From: Salipiger pallidus
Lineage (GTDB): Bacteria; Pseudomonadota; Alphaproteobacteria; Rhodobacterales; Rhodobacteraceae
Direction: 5' to 3'
DNA length: 64,000 nucleotides
Assembly (NCBI RefSeq): GCF_014643635.1
Contig: NZ_BMJV01000005.1
Span: 274-64,273 of the forward strand
Of this stretch, positions 69-61,340 are shown piece after piece (the first letter of the stretch is position 1; the number at the start of each line of letters is the position of its first letter). Below the pieces are notes generated by a model. The model was not told the origin of the DNA and searched no databases. It saw only the letters and a program-made list of their open reading frames with translations. The position numbers were made by a program, and so were the translations under genes.

Positions 69-91
69 GCGTATTTGACAAGAGAAGAAAC
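69..91 (+). repeat. short 3'-end repeat, type 2, copy 1
   Basis: Contains GTATTTGACAAGAGAAGAA, nearly identical to copies at 9650-9672 and 61318-61340. It stands directly before the hairpin at 91-124. The gene it would follow lies to the left of the window. Confidence 0.6.
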
Positions 92-128
92 AAGGGGTGC
101 GCGCCATCAAGACCGCGCCCCTTGTTTC
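91..128. terminator. bidirectional terminator-like hairpin downstream of mfd
   Basis: CAAGGGG (91-97) pairs with CCCCTTG (118-124), with a further CGCG/CGCG stem inside. It is followed by TTTCC on the plus strand and preceded by a type 2 repeat on one side and a type 1 repeat on the other, so it looks like the meeting point of two convergent transcripts. Confidence 0.55.
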
Positions 129-185
129 CTTTGACCTCAAATATCCCGGGGGAGGCCGCCGAAGGCGGACGGGGGCAGCGCCCCC
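125..185 (-). repeat. structured 3'-end repeat, type 1, copy A
   Basis: Read on the minus strand after the mfd stop: hairpin GGGGGCGCTGCCCCC, hairpin CCGCCTTCGGCGG, then CCCGGGATATTTGAGGTCAA and AAGGAAAC. Same architecture as copies at 6295-6352, 38809-38867 and 48057-48117. Confidence 0.75.
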
Positions 186-6294: not shown

Positions 6295-6352
6295 TTTCCT
6301 TTGACCAAAATATCCCGGGGGAGTCTCCACAGGAGACGGGGGCAGAGCCCCC
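6295..6352 (-). repeat. structured 3'-end repeat, type 1, copy B
   Basis: On the minus strand, just beyond the usg stop: GGGGCTCTGCCCCC hairpin, GTCTCCTGTGGAGAC hairpin, then CCCGGGATATTTTGGTCAA and AAGGAAAC. One base shorter in the ATATTT...GGTC spacer than the other copies. Confidence 0.75.
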
Positions 6353-6372: not shown

Positions 6373-6642
6373 CTAGTGGTAGCGGAATTCGCCAACCACC
6401 TGCCGCCACTCCCCGGCACCGATCATCTTGCGATGTGTAAAGCGGATCGAATGCAGAGGCCCCTCGATGCTATCCTGCCAGAATTCAATGAACTCAAAGA
6501 GCCTTTTGTGGTCCGGGGCAAGATCATACTCCTGCCAGACGAAGGTGTTGAGAACATTCCTGTAATCCGGCATGCGATAGAAGATTTCCGCGGTGGTCAG
6601 CCCGTAGCCTTTCAGCATGAGTTCCGTCGGCGTTTCCTGCAT
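6373..6642 (-). CDS. usg: Usg family protein
   Basis: 89-residue cytosolic protein of the alphaproteobacterial Usg family, named for the open reading frame upstream of trp genes in Caulobacter; its biochemical role is not established. It carries the family's conserved core (LMLKGYGLTTAEIFYRMPDY and WQDSIEGPLHSIRF). It is divergent from gyrA across a 191 bp gap, and no trp gene is nearby. An RBS-like AGGTAAA lies upstream of the ATG. It is unrelated to E. coli usg, which is an asd homologue. Confidence 0.85.
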   Translation of the reverse strand: MQETPTELMLKGYGLTTAEIFYRMPDYRNVLNTFVWQEYDLAPDHKRLFEFIEFWQDSIEGPLHSIRFTHRKMIGAGEWRQVVGEFRYH

Positions 6643-6833: not shown

Positions 6834-9584
6834 GTGACGGATACGCCGGAACCCCCTGAAAACGATGACGAAATGAGCAGACCCGAGCGTCCTGCTCCCA
6901 CCGGACCCGGTATTTCGATCATCGACGAGATGAAATCGAGCTATCTCGATTACGCCATGAGCGTGATCGTGAGCCGCGCGATTCCGGACCTGCGGGACGG
7001 TCTCAAACCGGTCCACCGCCGGATCCTCTATACCATGTGGGAAAACGGCCAGACCCGCGCCAAGGGCTATCGCAAATGCGCGACCGCCGTCGGCGATGTC
7101 ATGGGCCGCTACCACCCCCACGGCGACAGCGCGATCTACGACGCTCTGGTGCGGATGGCGCAGGACTTTTCCATGTCCCTGCCGCTGATCGATGGCCAGG
7201 GCAACTTCGGCTCCATGGACGGCGACCCGCCCGCGGCCTACCGTTACACGGAGGCCCGACTCGACAAGACCGCCGAGGCGCTGCTCGAGGACATCGACAA
7301 GGACACCGTCGATTTTGTTCCGAACTACGCCAACGAGCGCAGCGAGCCTGTGGTTCTCCCGGCGCGCTACCCCAACATCCTTGTAAACGGCTCCGAGGGC
7401 ATCGCCGTCGGCATGGCCACCCGCATCCCGCCACACAACCTTGGTGAAGTGGCGGACGCGACACTTGCGCTGATCGAGAACCCGGACCTGTCGTCCGAGC
7501 AGCTGATCGAATACATCCCTGCCCCGGACTTTCCCACGGGTGGCGTGATCCTTGGTCGATCGGGCGCGCGAAAGGCCTACCTCGAGGGGCGCGGCAGCGT
7601 CATCATCCGGGCCAAGACCCGGATCGAGGAGATCAAGCGCGACCGCTATGCCATCGTCATCGACGAGATCCCCTACCAGGTGAACAAGGCGGTGATGATC
7701 GAGCGGATCGCCGAATCCGTCCGTGACAAGAAGATCGAAGGCATCTCGCACGTTCAGGACGAATCCGACCGCTCCGGCGTGCGCGTGGTAATCGAGCTCA
7801 AGCGCGATGCCACCGCCGAGGTGGTGCTGAACCAGCTCTACCGCTTCACGCCGATGCAGACCTCTTTCGGCTGCAACATGCTGGCGCTGAACGGCGGCAA
7901 GCCTGAGCAGCTGACCCTGCGGGCCTTCCTCACCGCCTTCGTGGACTTCCGCGAGGACGTGGTGGCGCGCCGCACGGCCTACCTGCTGCGCAAGGCGCGC
8001 GAGCGGGCGCATATCCTCTGCGGTCTGGCCGTGGCAGTGTCGAACGTCGACGAGGTGGTGCGCACCATCCGCCAGTCCGCCGATGCGGCCGAGGCGCGCG
8101 ACAAGCTGATGACCCGGCGCTGGCCCGCCGAGGATATCCTGCCCTACATCGCGCTGATCGATGACCCGACCCACACCGCGAACGAGGACGGCACCTATAA
8201 CCTGTCGGAAACGCAGGCCCGGGCCATCCTCGAGCTGCGGCTGCAGCGCCTGACCCAGATCGGGGTCAAGGAAGTCACCGACGAGCTCGAGGAACTGGCA
8301 GGCAAGATCCGCGAATACCTCGAGATCCTCGGCAGCCGCGAGCGGATCATGGAGATCGTGTCAAACGAGCTTAGCGCGGTGAAGGAACAGTTCGCCGTTC
8401 CCCGCCGGACCGAGATCATCGACTGGGCCGGCGACATGGAGGACGAGGACCTCATCGAGCGTGAGGACATGGTCGTCACCGTCACCGCCGGCGGCTACAT
8501 CAAGCGCACGCCGCTGGGTGAATTCCGCGCCCAGAAGCGTGGCGGCAAGGGGCTTTCGGGCGGCGGCCTGAAAGAGGACGACGTGGTCACGCAGCTGTTC
8601 GTGGCCAACACCCACACCCAGCTGCTGTTCTTCACCACCGAGGGCATGGTATACAAGCTCAAGACCTGGCGCCTGCCGCAGGGTGGCCGGACCTCGCGCG
8701 GGAAGGCGATCGTCAACATCCTGCCGATCCCGCAAGGGGTGTCGGTGGCGGCGATCATGCCGGTGGACCGGGAAGAGGCCGACTGGGACGATCTGCAGAT
8801 CGTCTTTGCCACCTCCAAGGGCTCTGTGCGCCGCAACCGGCTTTCGGATTTCACCAACGTCATGCGCAACGGCAAGATCGCGATGAAGTTCGATGGCGAA
8901 GACGAAACCACTCGTCTCATCAACGCCCGGATCTGCTCCGAGGATGACGACATCATGCTTGTCACCAACTCGGGCCGCGCGATCCGCTTCCCGGTGCCGG
9001 AGGTGCGGGTGTTCAACTCGCGCAACTCCACCGGGGTGCGGGGCATCAAGCTGTCGAATGGGGACGAGGTCGTGTCCATGTCCATCATCCGCCACTTCGA
9101 GGCGGAATCGGACGAGCGGGCCTCCTACCTCAAGATGCGCCGTGCCATGGCCGGGCTCGCGGACGATGCCGAAGGCTCTTCGGATGAAGAGGAAGGCAAC
9201 GCCGACAGCCTGCTGCCGGCCGAGCGCTATGCCGAGATGTCCGCTGCCGAGAACCTGCTGCTGACGATCACCGCCAAGGGTGTCGGCAAGCTGTCTTCGA
9301 GCCATGACTACCCCGTTCGGGGCCGTGGCGGCATGGGCGTGACCGCGTGGGAGAAATCCATGCGCGGCGGCGAGATCGTGGCCTCCTTCCCGGTCGAAAT
9401 GGACGACCAGATCATGCTGGCAACCTCGACCGGCCAGTCGATCCGGGTGCCCGTGGAAGGCATTTCCTTCCGGTCCCGCGCAGCGGGCGGTGTGAAGGTC
9501 TTCAATACCCGCGAAGGCGAGGTCGTCGTGTCGGTGGCCTGGATTGCCGACCAGGGCGACGAAGACGAGGTCGAAGAGGGCTGA
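6834..9584 (+). CDS. gyrA: DNA gyrase subunit A
   Basis: Breakage-reunion subunit of gyrase, which introduces negative supercoils with GyrB. 916 residues starting at GTG. The catalytic tyrosine lies in [12 protein letters not shown] (about residue 135). The quinolone-resistance region reads [15 protein letters not shown], with the serine and aspartate of sensitive enzymes both present. The C-terminal domain opens with a GyrA box variant QKRGGKG (about 565). An acidic insertion, roughly residues 775-805 ([13 protein letters not shown]), interrupts the C-terminal beta-pinwheel, a feature known in alphaproteobacterial GyrA. A strong terminator follows at 9612-9644. Confidence 0.98.
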
Positions 9585-9649: not shown

Positions 9650-9672
9650 GCGTATCTGGAAAGAGAAGAAAC
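9650..9672 (+). repeat. short 3'-end repeat, type 2, copy 2
   Basis: Contains GTATCTGGAAAGAGAAGAA, directly after the gyrA terminator and 72 bp before the M48 protease start. One mismatch to the copy at 61318-61340. Confidence 0.6.
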
Positions 9673-38808: not shown

Positions 38809-38867
38809 AGGGGCTCTGCCCCCGCAGCCTGCGGCTGCTCCCCCGGGATATTTGGAGTCAAAGGAAG
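38809..38867 (+). repeat. structured 3'-end repeat, type 1, copy C
   Basis: Between pdxA and rsmA: GGGGCTCTGCCCCC hairpin, GCAGCCTGCGGCTGC hairpin, then CCCGGGATATTTGGAGTCAA and AAGGAAG. The terminal AAGGAAG is the Shine-Dalgarno sequence of rsmA, whose ATG begins at 38870. Confidence 0.75.
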
Positions 38868-45962: not shown

Positions 45963-45993
45963 GGGTGGACTCCGGATGATGCTTGGCGCAGGA

Positions 45994-46033
45994 CAGAACA
46001 GAACAGAACAGAACAGAACAGAACAGAACAGAA
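45994..46033 (+). repeat. CAGAA tandem repeat, eight units
   Basis: Eight perfect copies of CAGAA, followed by a partial CA, in the 93 bp region between the M20 amidohydrolase and mazG starts. It occupies the position where promoter elements would be expected. Confidence 0.95.
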
Positions 46034-46055
46034 CACCTTATGCCGGGGGAAGTCC

Positions 46056-46995: not shown

Positions 46996-48009
46996 ATGCG
47001 CCTTGCAGTATCCGCCATCGCCTTGGCCGCCGTGGCCGCACCGGCCCTCGCTCAGGACCAGTCCGGTGAGGTCAACCTCTATTCCTACCGCCAGCCCGAG
47101 CTGCTGGCACCACTGACCGAAGCCTTCACCGAGGCGACCGGCATCGAGGTCAACGTGGCCTATCTCGAGGATGGCATGGTGGAGCGCCTGCAGGCCGAGG
47201 GCGACCGCTCGCCCGCCGACCTGGTGTTCACCGTGGACATTTCGCGCCTGTCGGCCGTCGTTGACGCGGGCGTCACGCAGGCCGTGGAAAGCGATGTTCT
47301 GTCGCAGAACATCCCCTCCACTTACCACGATCCAGACGGCCACTGGTGGGGCCTGACCACCCGCGCGCGCATCGTCTACGCGTCCAAGGACCGCGTCGAT
47401 CCTTCGGAAGTGACCAGCTATGAAGACCTCGCCGACCCCAAGTGGGAAGGACGCATCTGCACCCGCTCGGGCACCCACCCCTACAACGTGGCGCTAGCCT
47501 CGGCCTTCCTCGCGCATCACGGTGCGGAAGAGACCAAGACCTGGCTCGAGGGCCTGAAGTCCAACCTTGCGCGCAAGCCGCAGGGCAATGACCGCGCGCA
47601 GGTCAAGGCGATCTGGGCCGGTGAGTGCGACATCTCGCTCGGCAACACCTATTACATGGGCCAGATGCTGAACGATGACGAGCAGAAGGAATGGGCGGAG
47701 TCGGTCAACGTTCTGTTCCCCGAGTTCGAGGACGGCGGCACCCACGTGAACATCTCGGGCGTGGCGATGACGAAATCTGCGCCGAACCGCGAGAACGCGC
47801 TGAAGATGATGGAATTCCTCAGCTCGCCCGAGGCGCAGGAAATCTATGCCCACGCCAACTACGAGTATCCGGTCGCGCCGGGCACCGAGGCGGACGAGCT
47901 CGTGGAAAGCTGGGGCAGCTTCGAGGCGGACGAGCTTAACCTGATGGAGCTTGCGGGCTACCGGGGCGAGGCGCTGCGCCTGATTGAAGAGGTCGATTTC
48001 GACGGCTGA
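46996..48009 (+). CDS. periplasmic Fe(3+)-binding ABC transporter protein (FbpA/FutA type), orphan
   Basis: 337-residue periplasmic substrate-binding protein. Signal peptide MRLAVSAIALAAVAAPALAQ. The mature N-terminus GEVNLYSYRQPELLAPL and the adjacent tyrosines in LGNTYYMGQM (about residue 219) are typical of ferric-iron-binding FbpA/FutA/AfuA proteins. No permease or ATPase gene is adjacent on either side, so it is an orphan that must use an exporter partner encoded elsewhere. AGGGAG precedes the ATG. A promoter with an inverted repeat, possibly iron-responsive, lies upstream; a type 1 repeat and a terminator follow. Confidence 0.9.
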   Translation: MRLAVSAIALAAVAAPALAQDQSGEVNLYSYRQPELLAPLTEAFTEATGIEVNVAYLEDGMVERLQAEGDRSPADLVFTVDISRLSAVVDAGVTQAVESDVLSQNIPSTYHDPDGHWWGLTTRARIVYASKDRVDPSEVTSYEDLADPKWEGRICTRSGTHPYNVALASAFLAHHGAEETKTWLEGLKSNLARKPQGNDRAQVKAIWAGECDISLGNTYYMGQMLNDDEQKEWAESVNVLFPEFEDGGTHVNISGVAMTKSAPNRENALKMMEFLSSPEAQEIYAHANYEYPVAPGTEADELVESWGSFEADELNLMELAGYRGEALRLIEEVDFDG

Positions 48010-48056
48010 TCGACGGCCGGGCGCACGAGCCTTTCGACCGCCTGACCGGCGGCGAA

Positions 48057-48117
48057 GGGGGCTCTGCCCCCGTCTCCTGCGGAGACTCCCCCGGGATATT
48101 TGGGGTCAAAGGAAACA
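48057..48117 (+). repeat. structured 3'-end repeat, type 1, copy D
   Basis: After the iron-binding protein gene: GGGGCTCTGCCCCC hairpin, GTCTCCTGCGGAGAC hairpin, then GGGATATTTGGGGTCAAAGG and AAAC. Immediately followed by the terminator hairpin at 48123-48153. Confidence 0.8.
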
Positions 48118-48122
48118 CGAAG

Positions 48123-48153
48123 GGGCGCTGCGGCATCGCGGCGCCTTTTTCCT
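48123..48153 (+). terminator. terminator downstream of type 1 repeat copy D
   Basis: GGCGCTGCGG and CGCGGCGCC form an imperfect stem followed by TTTTTCC. Confidence 0.65.
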
Positions 48154-48197
48154 TGGGCAATAAGCTGCTGAGGGTTGGTTCCCGGCGAGCCAGGCGC

Positions 48198-48232
48198 AAA
48201 AGGAAAGCGGCGCCCCCACAAGGGAGCGCCGC
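48198..48232 (-). terminator. intrinsic terminator of acpP
   Basis: On the minus strand GGCGGCGCTCCC pairs with GGGGGCGCCGC around TTGT, followed by TTTCCTTTT; 28 bases after the acpP stop. Confidence 0.75.
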
Positions 48233-61317: not shown

Positions 61318-61340
61318 GCGTATTTGGAAAGAGAAGAAGC
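61318..61340 (+). repeat. short 3'-end repeat, type 2, copy 3
   Basis: Contains GTATTTGGAAAGAGAAGAA, starting 13 bases after the YitT stop and followed by a GCGCAG/CTGCGC hairpin (61339-61368). Confidence 0.6.

Follow-up and report, generated by a model that had tools for sequence, protein, structure and literature searches.

Gene-end DNA elements with interchangeable leaders and lineage-specific tags in Rhodobacterales

Rhodobacterales carry an order-wide family of gene-end DNA elements, each built from a leader and a tag. One of the tags is near-constant within a genome and different in relatives, which suggests that a candidate cell factor reads it. Judged from sequence comparison, the tag may be bound by a putative trans-acting, lineage-specific factor that acts mostly on DNA, a view of these gene-end elements that is held tentatively, at somewhat less than even confidence. 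The window, which is the whole 64,000-nucleotide stretch of Salipiger pallidus DNA analysed here, contains four type-1 (T1) copies, A to D, and three type-2 (T2) tails. Their parts are as follows (window coordinates):

48057..48071, + strand: copy D, first hairpin, fixed hairpin GGGGGCTCTGCCCCC
48072..48086, + strand: copy D, second hairpin, variable hairpin GTCTCC-TGC-GGAGAC
48087..48094, + strand: copy D, constant TCCCCCGG, which precedes the tail
48095..48112, + strand: copy D, tail, composed of GATATTT (48095-48101), variable GGG (48102-48104), and the species dialect GTCAAAGG (48105-48112)
48122..48152, + strand: intrinsic-terminator-like hairpin with T-run, 3' of copy D (locus L002)
38809..38864, + strand: copy C, in the pdxA-ksgA gap, with AAAGGA at the expected position of the ksgA ribosome-binding site (RBS)
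6298..6352, - strand: copy B, 3' of the 89-aa ORF 6373-6642, with a 2-nt spacer
128..185, - strand: copy A, 3' of mfd (stop at 225)
69..89, + strand: inverted type-2 tail GCGTATTTGACAAGAGAAGAA opposite copy A, the two forming composite element 69-185
9650..9670, + strand: type-2 tail GCGTATCTGGAAAGAGAAGAA, downstream of ORF 6834-9584 and preceded by a GC hairpin with a T-run
61318..61338, + strand: type-2 tail GCGTATTTGGAAAGAGAAGAA

Copies A and B lie on the - strand and copies C and D on the + strand. The genes upstream of them are mfd, the 89-aa ORF, pdxA, and a solute-binding protein gene, respectively. The 20-mer GGGATATTTGGGGTCAAAGG at up to three mismatches has three matches in the window versus none in 100 dinucleotide shuffles; it misses copy B because the spacer of that copy is 2 nt, and a flexible-spacer pattern finds the tail of copy B at C5:6571, which is window position 6298. 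Two contig starts of the same genome, L011 (C5:1-1925) and L014 (C13:1-1946), carry a near-identical copy-A composite, which is either duplicated or an unresolved assembly end. A short tandem array of CAGAA-like units at window 45989-46040 adjoins a called - strand gene.

The anatomy of the elements was read from S. pallidus copies set out in register (53 T1 and 63 T2 tails). The tag has two parts: GATATTT (or GCG/GAGTATTT), followed after usually three (two to four) free bases by a decamer. The T1 tail reads GATATTT-N3-GTCAAAGGAA, and the T2 tail reads GCGTATTT-N3-AAGAGAAGAA, with 93 matches at up to three mismatches (control, 0). Leaders are of three types: type a consists of GGGGGCKCTGCCCCC, a variable hairpin, and CCCCCGG; type b is GCCTCCGGCGGG; and type c is a plain start, in some copies preceded by a host hairpin with a T-run. 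In the aligned T1 and T2 copies, the leaders are interchangeable between tails. In the fetched loci, an inverted partner lies within 110 nt of 21 of 57 T1 and 10 of 48 T2 tails; these counts, like the terminator counts below, leave out copy B and tails near locus ends, and the T2 analyses cover 47-48 exact tails of the 62 T2 copies in this genome. Same-strand tandems also occur, with two tails 145 nt apart at L426 and three about 120 nt apart at G311:C8:40978-41235.

The earlier note, made from the letters of the window, had counted four T1 copies there. All four are present, and the family is much larger than claimed: GATATTT-N(2-4)-GTCAAAGG occurs exactly 55 times in the 4.4-Mb genome and never in the control. 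The 25-mer at up to three mismatches has 41 copies (reversed control, 0), and GATATTTNNNGTCAAAGG has 47 exact, seven one-mismatch, and two two-mismatch copies (reversed control, 2). Inexact copies of GATATTTNNNGTCAAAGG are few, and decayed T1 copies are therefore few; two of the seven one-mismatch tails show GCCAAAGG. In the fetched sequence of this genome, a small share of the whole, GTCAAAGGA lies inside elements only (54 of 54 contexts). A chance origin is ruled out, with no control matches in most searches and two in one that allowed up to two mismatches.

The hairpin arms covary, as the earlier note had proposed. Of 224 copies identified with up to two mismatches allowed, 213 have first-hairpin arms that pair throughout. 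In the variable hairpin, pairing is kept through changes in both arms: the mean longest helix is 4.97 Watson-Crick pairs in 32 distinct S. pallidus inserts versus 3.15 (maximum 3.53) with re-dealt arms, and 5.59 versus 3.34 (maximum 3.62) in 124 distinct inserts of species and viral loci. The 388 of 390 inserts with a helix of at least two net pairs contain 2,237 Watson-Crick pairs, 5 G-U, 23 A-C, and 44 other mismatches, and without one foot position that freely mixes T/C with A/C there are 4 G-U versus 10 A-C. The comparison set, terminator-like hairpins of the same loci, contains 48 G-U, 30 A-C, and 1,344 Watson-Crick pairs. The G-U count depends on the helix threshold (185 of 192 inserts give 2 G-U and 10 A-C; the stricter 358 of 398 inserts give 0 versus 22, with short G-U-containing helices lost), and the claim is therefore limited to a lack of G-U enrichment. 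A structure on the opposite strand, hinted at by 0 versus 22, was dropped since lower thresholds recover G-U helices (5 versus 23).

When folded as RNA, the four window copies have minimum free energies that do not go beyond those of shuffles (z of -1.46, 0.02, -1.03, and 0.55). Rfam has no match in the window at the gathering score; the best for window 47990-48220 is ar35 at 15.8 bits, against a cut-off of 45. Because the covariation comes without a G-U excess or a folding excess, we read the palindrome as kept at the DNA level or in both strands, rather than as a sense-strand RNA fold.

These results bear on an RNA-level 3'-UTR element, the reading toward which the earlier note leaned. Under this account, hairpins and purine-rich tail would stabilise or process mRNA ends, the decamer would serve as an A-tract or RBS, and the UAUUU of the tail would be a possible RNase E site. 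The lack of G-U enrichment and folding no better than shuffles speak against it, and placement offers it support as well as opposition.

Genes were called with an in-house codon-usage caller, independently of annotation, and the placement count drops tails less than 200 nt from a locus end or lacking a called gene on both sides. The 347 tails classified from four sets (S. pallidus T1, S. pallidus T2, three congeners, and 119 species loci) fall in convergent (131), co-directional (195), and divergent (21) gaps, and another 16 of 363 lie inside called ORFs. Divergent gaps account for 16-23% of the gaps that span 40 nt or more in these loci, a null taken from loci centred on elements; the counts support a depletion of elements from divergent gaps (21 of 347 tails). 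Among single copies in co-directional gaps, 95 are sense and 61 antisense to both genes (n = 156, p = 0.008). The earlier note had held that copies follow a same-strand stop; all four window copies do, and the rule does not hold in general, given the 61 antisense copies of 156 in the four sets.

The sense excess is compatible with some role at the RNA level. Among 82 species copies that have a same-strand upstream gene, the leader starts a median of 24 nt past the stop, which also favours the 3'-UTR account, as do the terminators after copies A and D. Against it, the upstream gene does not read into the element in 79 of 264 single copies, and antisense copies are kept in congeners (L009 and L027, and L018 with one flank only). 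A hairpin with T-run lies within 65 nt downstream of 8 of 57 T1 and 11 of 48 T2 tails (shuffle expectations of 2.4 and 1.0), and a canonical terminator within that distance of 6 of 36 T1 and 8 of 38 T2 single copies, those without an inverted partner. The passage of the tail into a terminator or RBS therefore holds for A and D (terminator) and C (RBS position) and does not generalise (6 of 36 T1 singles). What remains of the RNA proposal is a structured gene-3'-end family with a sense excess; as the main reading it gives way on G-U pairs, folding, and antisense copies, and we regard it as unlikely.

A search of Rhodobacterales genomes, which the earlier note had called for, was made by pattern. 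The full form, a fixed G5/C5 hairpin, a variable hairpin, CCCCCGG, and nnTATTT, places the family in 184 of 292 genomes and 91 of 112 genera of the order (control, 0). The leader pattern occurs in 23 of 41 relatives, comprising 19 of 20 genomes of the genus, four of five other genomes of the family, and none of 16 from other families; within the genus, its copy number ranges from 0 to 98, with the most in G309 (98). The exact T1 tail (N3) is found 47 times in S. pallidus and once each in two others among 295 family genomes. The T2 decamer AAGAGAAGAA occurs in 12 of the 20 genus genomes including S. pallidus, at 9 to 125 copies, and in none of 21 outside the genus. Genome G296 has no exact leader-pattern or T2 copies and none of the three GATATTT-class decamers described below, also searched as exact patterns; it may have lost the system, or it may carry a dialect that the patterns do not see.

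A scan of genome contigs gave at least 119 stretches with an element, and a scan of 2.9 million viral contigs gave nine. Among 80 listed stretches, the only titles outside Rhodobacterales/Rhodobacteraceae are L166, L212, L238, and L239, where the genus names of some listed element-bearing contigs are ones that we take to belong to these groups. Contig L238 is titled Enemella evansiae, an actinobacterium, and its element possibly reflects contamination. Four of five PLSDB records examined hold two to four annotated features per whole record, and the absence of a feature under a match therefore says little.

The tail, nearly invariant according to the earlier note, is so within S. pallidus, where decayed T1 copies are few, and is otherwise a species dialect that is absent from 19 congeners. 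The bases after TATTT vary across species. In the GATATTT class, GTCAAAGG occurs 55 times in S. pallidus and not in the 19 other genomes of the genus; GCCAGAAGAA occurs in G304 (94), G311 (59), G088 (57), G310 (53), G312 (46), and G300 (16), and in none of the remaining 14; and CCTAGAAGAA occurs in G301 (150), G306 (99), G308 (30), and G302 (2), and in none of the remaining 16. The three decamers are mutually exclusive between genomes, and 9 of the 20 carry none of them. S. pallidus has no exact GATATTT-N(2-4)-GCCAGAAGAA and thus no exact left-behind copies; both sides of the decamer comparison come from exact patterns, which under-count decayed and off-dialect sites. One dialect per genome is shown for the GATATTT class of 11 genomes only, since nine genomes are untyped by these decamers and T2 is common to 12 of the 20. 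A conserved processing enzyme, as in the 3'-UTR account, would not explain exclusive decamers.

Such dialects also recall uptake sequences, and a decamer favoured by DNA uptake or recombination could, by analogy, spread through biased import. With their decamer dialects, near-constant sequence, and inverted gene-end pairs, the elements resemble the DUS and USS described in PMC3630211, PMC1852404, and PMC5217627. The elements number 2-150 copies per genome, however, compared with DUS counts of 943 and 4,265 in two Neisseria genomes (PMC3630211); they lie almost entirely between genes (16 of 363 tails fall within called ORFs), and DUS have no hairpin leaders. Uptake tagging is therefore a rather improbable source of the family.

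Elements are inherited at orthologous sites, and the decamer changes at such sites. Regions were fetched around exact GCCAGAAGAA tails of G312 (41 regions, 45 of 46 tails), G088 (39, 44 of 57), and G311 (40, 51 of 59), and compared with 50 of the 55 S. pallidus tails. When the comparison was repeated by rule, 13 of the 50 tails, at 11 loci, had a same-orientation orthologous tail with another decamer in G312, G088, or G311, and 10 of the 13 share both flanking genes. At L072, the 45-nt leader is one base off those of G312 and G088 (0.98), with flanks at 0.52-0.76. At L003, the whole inverted composite is kept, with one leader at 0.93 that includes a paired A-T/C-G exchange, and neither decamer is the same. 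Random G088-G312 element pairs have a median leader identity of 0.56 and a 95th percentile of 0.80, which only the L072 and L003 leaders exceed; the other pairs rest on flanking genes and leader type, and L025, L070, L071, and L073 have unusual leader types common to the orthologues, yet within the random-pair range.

Leaders are also better conserved than their flanks. The medians are 0.91 versus 0.85 and 0.86 in 24 of 27 G088-G312 pairs (p = 0.0005), and 0.73 versus 0.53 and 0.61 at 10 of 15 S. pallidus sites (p = 0.002), leaving out L027 (masked), L002 (copy D, opposite arrangement), L011 (one gene, probable paralogue), L065, and L050. Between the two blocks, the free bases are identical in 11 of the 24 G088-G312 pairs and none of the 10 S. 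pallidus pairs. Recent copying hardly explains invariant blocks separated by two to four free bases; copying would carry the free bases along and selection on the two blocks would not, which favours selection.

There is turnover besides inheritance. In the pdxA-ksgA gap of the 20 genus genomes, examined free of pattern bias, nnTATTT is present in 12 and TATTC in three more, and the module ends just upstream of the ksgA start in 14, a placement that also fits the RNA account. Congeners carry other modules there, including AACCAGAGAAGAC and GAAAGATGAAGAC, and lockstep is therefore not universal. G295 and G296 (L295 and L300) have no element, and in both, 5 bp separate the pdxA stop from the aligned ksgA start, an apparent ATGA overlap. 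At the site of copy D, G088 and G312 have a composite in the opposite arrangement, G299 and G310 have none, and G295 is rearranged. Four Paracoccus records share three sites, where P. pantotrophus has other modules than the P. versutus/ferrooxidans group; Paracoccus modules thus drift site by site.

Turnover of this kind is what a selfish REP/BIME-like repeat would produce, with a transposase reading the tag and dispersing copies, and dialects as successive sub-families. Mosaic leader and tail modules, inverted pairs, the genus range of 0 to 98 copies, and sites filled in some congeners and empty in others all fit, as does the single Y1_Tnp match of G309, the genome with the most leader copies (98). 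Yet 17 of 20 genus genomes, S. pallidus among them, lack Y1_Tnp (PF01797), and G296 has it without any leader copy. Elements at orthologous sites are retained through changes of the decamer, the invariant tag contains free bases, and decayed T1 copies are few. A selfish repeat is, on these points, an improbable explanation, and RAYT-driven REP was rejected as a sufficient cause because S. pallidus and 16 other genus genomes lack PF01797.

A trans-acting RNA that base-pairs to the decamer and evolves in step with it would suit the purine-rich decamer and its lineage-specific change at many sites. Antisense copies are kept too, however, and no decamer lies outside elements in the fetched S. pallidus sequence, a small share of the genome; such an RNA is very improbable.

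The explanation that we think most likely is a trans-acting, lineage-specific reader, whose existence we infer. The putative factor would bind the tag mostly at the DNA level, as proposed because elements persist in both orientations and G-U pairing is not preferred. Shifts in its specificity would lead selection to rewrite the sites, and a bound site with its hairpins at gene ends could mark the ends of transcription or act as a block there. The A-rich decamer and its complement flank the loop of inverted pairs and could there serve as a two-way intrinsic terminator. A fuller version, in which tens to hundreds of sites per genome form a gene-end address code with a fast-evolving putative reader, decamers rewritten in place, and a palindromic leader that stays, is possible but doubtful. 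If true, gene ends across the genomes of a major bacterial order would be served by a system with species dialects. This would be a natural experiment in how a reader and its sites co-evolve across a whole regulon, and the reader would be expected to be the gene whose specificity residues follow the decamer from congener to congener. In practice, the elements bear on terminator and 3'-end annotation across Rhodobacterales.

No published description of these elements was found among the literature matches listed, in the available parts of open-access texts. Several known systems share features with them. The attC sites and the ends of HUH elements (IS200-605, IS91) place a variable-arm hairpin beside a short conserved single-strand motif, and the elements likewise have a variable-arm hairpin beside a short conserved motif; unlike attC sites and HUH ends, they are not in an array, and PF01797 is absent from the S. 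pallidus genome. Intrinsic terminators are also GC hairpins at gene ends, and some composites consist of an A-rich tract, a GC stem, and a U-rich tract. The elements differ in their long sequence-specific tag, and a hairpin with T-run follows only a minority of single elements (6 of 36 T1 and 8 of 38 T2).

REP/BIME sequences are short gene-end palindromes present in many copies, with inverted pairs, an unpaired tag, and avoidance of promoter gaps. The elements similarly combine a short palindrome and unpaired tag in many intergenic copies and inverted pairs and are likewise scarce in promoter gaps, but they have variable arms with a fixed tag, and this tag changes at orthologous sites. They also differ from REP/RAYT systems in that the Y1 transposase is absent from S. 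pallidus and found in 3 of 20 genus genomes (G296, G300, and G309), and inspected copies have no GTAG or CGTC tag at the foot. Rhodobacter and Paracoccus are absent from the main-text words of the GTAG/CGTC survey (PMC3733652) and of RepRanger (PMC12306157).

DUS of Neisseriaceae and USS of Pasteurellaceae have 10-12-mer dialects between related species and inverted pairs at terminators, according to the parts consulted of PMC3630211, PMC1852404, and PMC5217627, and lineage-specific decamer dialects likewise mark the GATATTT class, for which 11 of 20 genomes are typed. DUS and USS number about a thousand copies and also lie within genes, whereas the elements have 55 copies in S. pallidus and 16 of 363 in ORFs; the elements also consist of two parts around a free spacer and have GC hairpin leaders. 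Among known systems, DUS and USS come closest in behaviour through their dialects and inverted pairs at terminators, with differences in copy number and in confinement to intergenic DNA.
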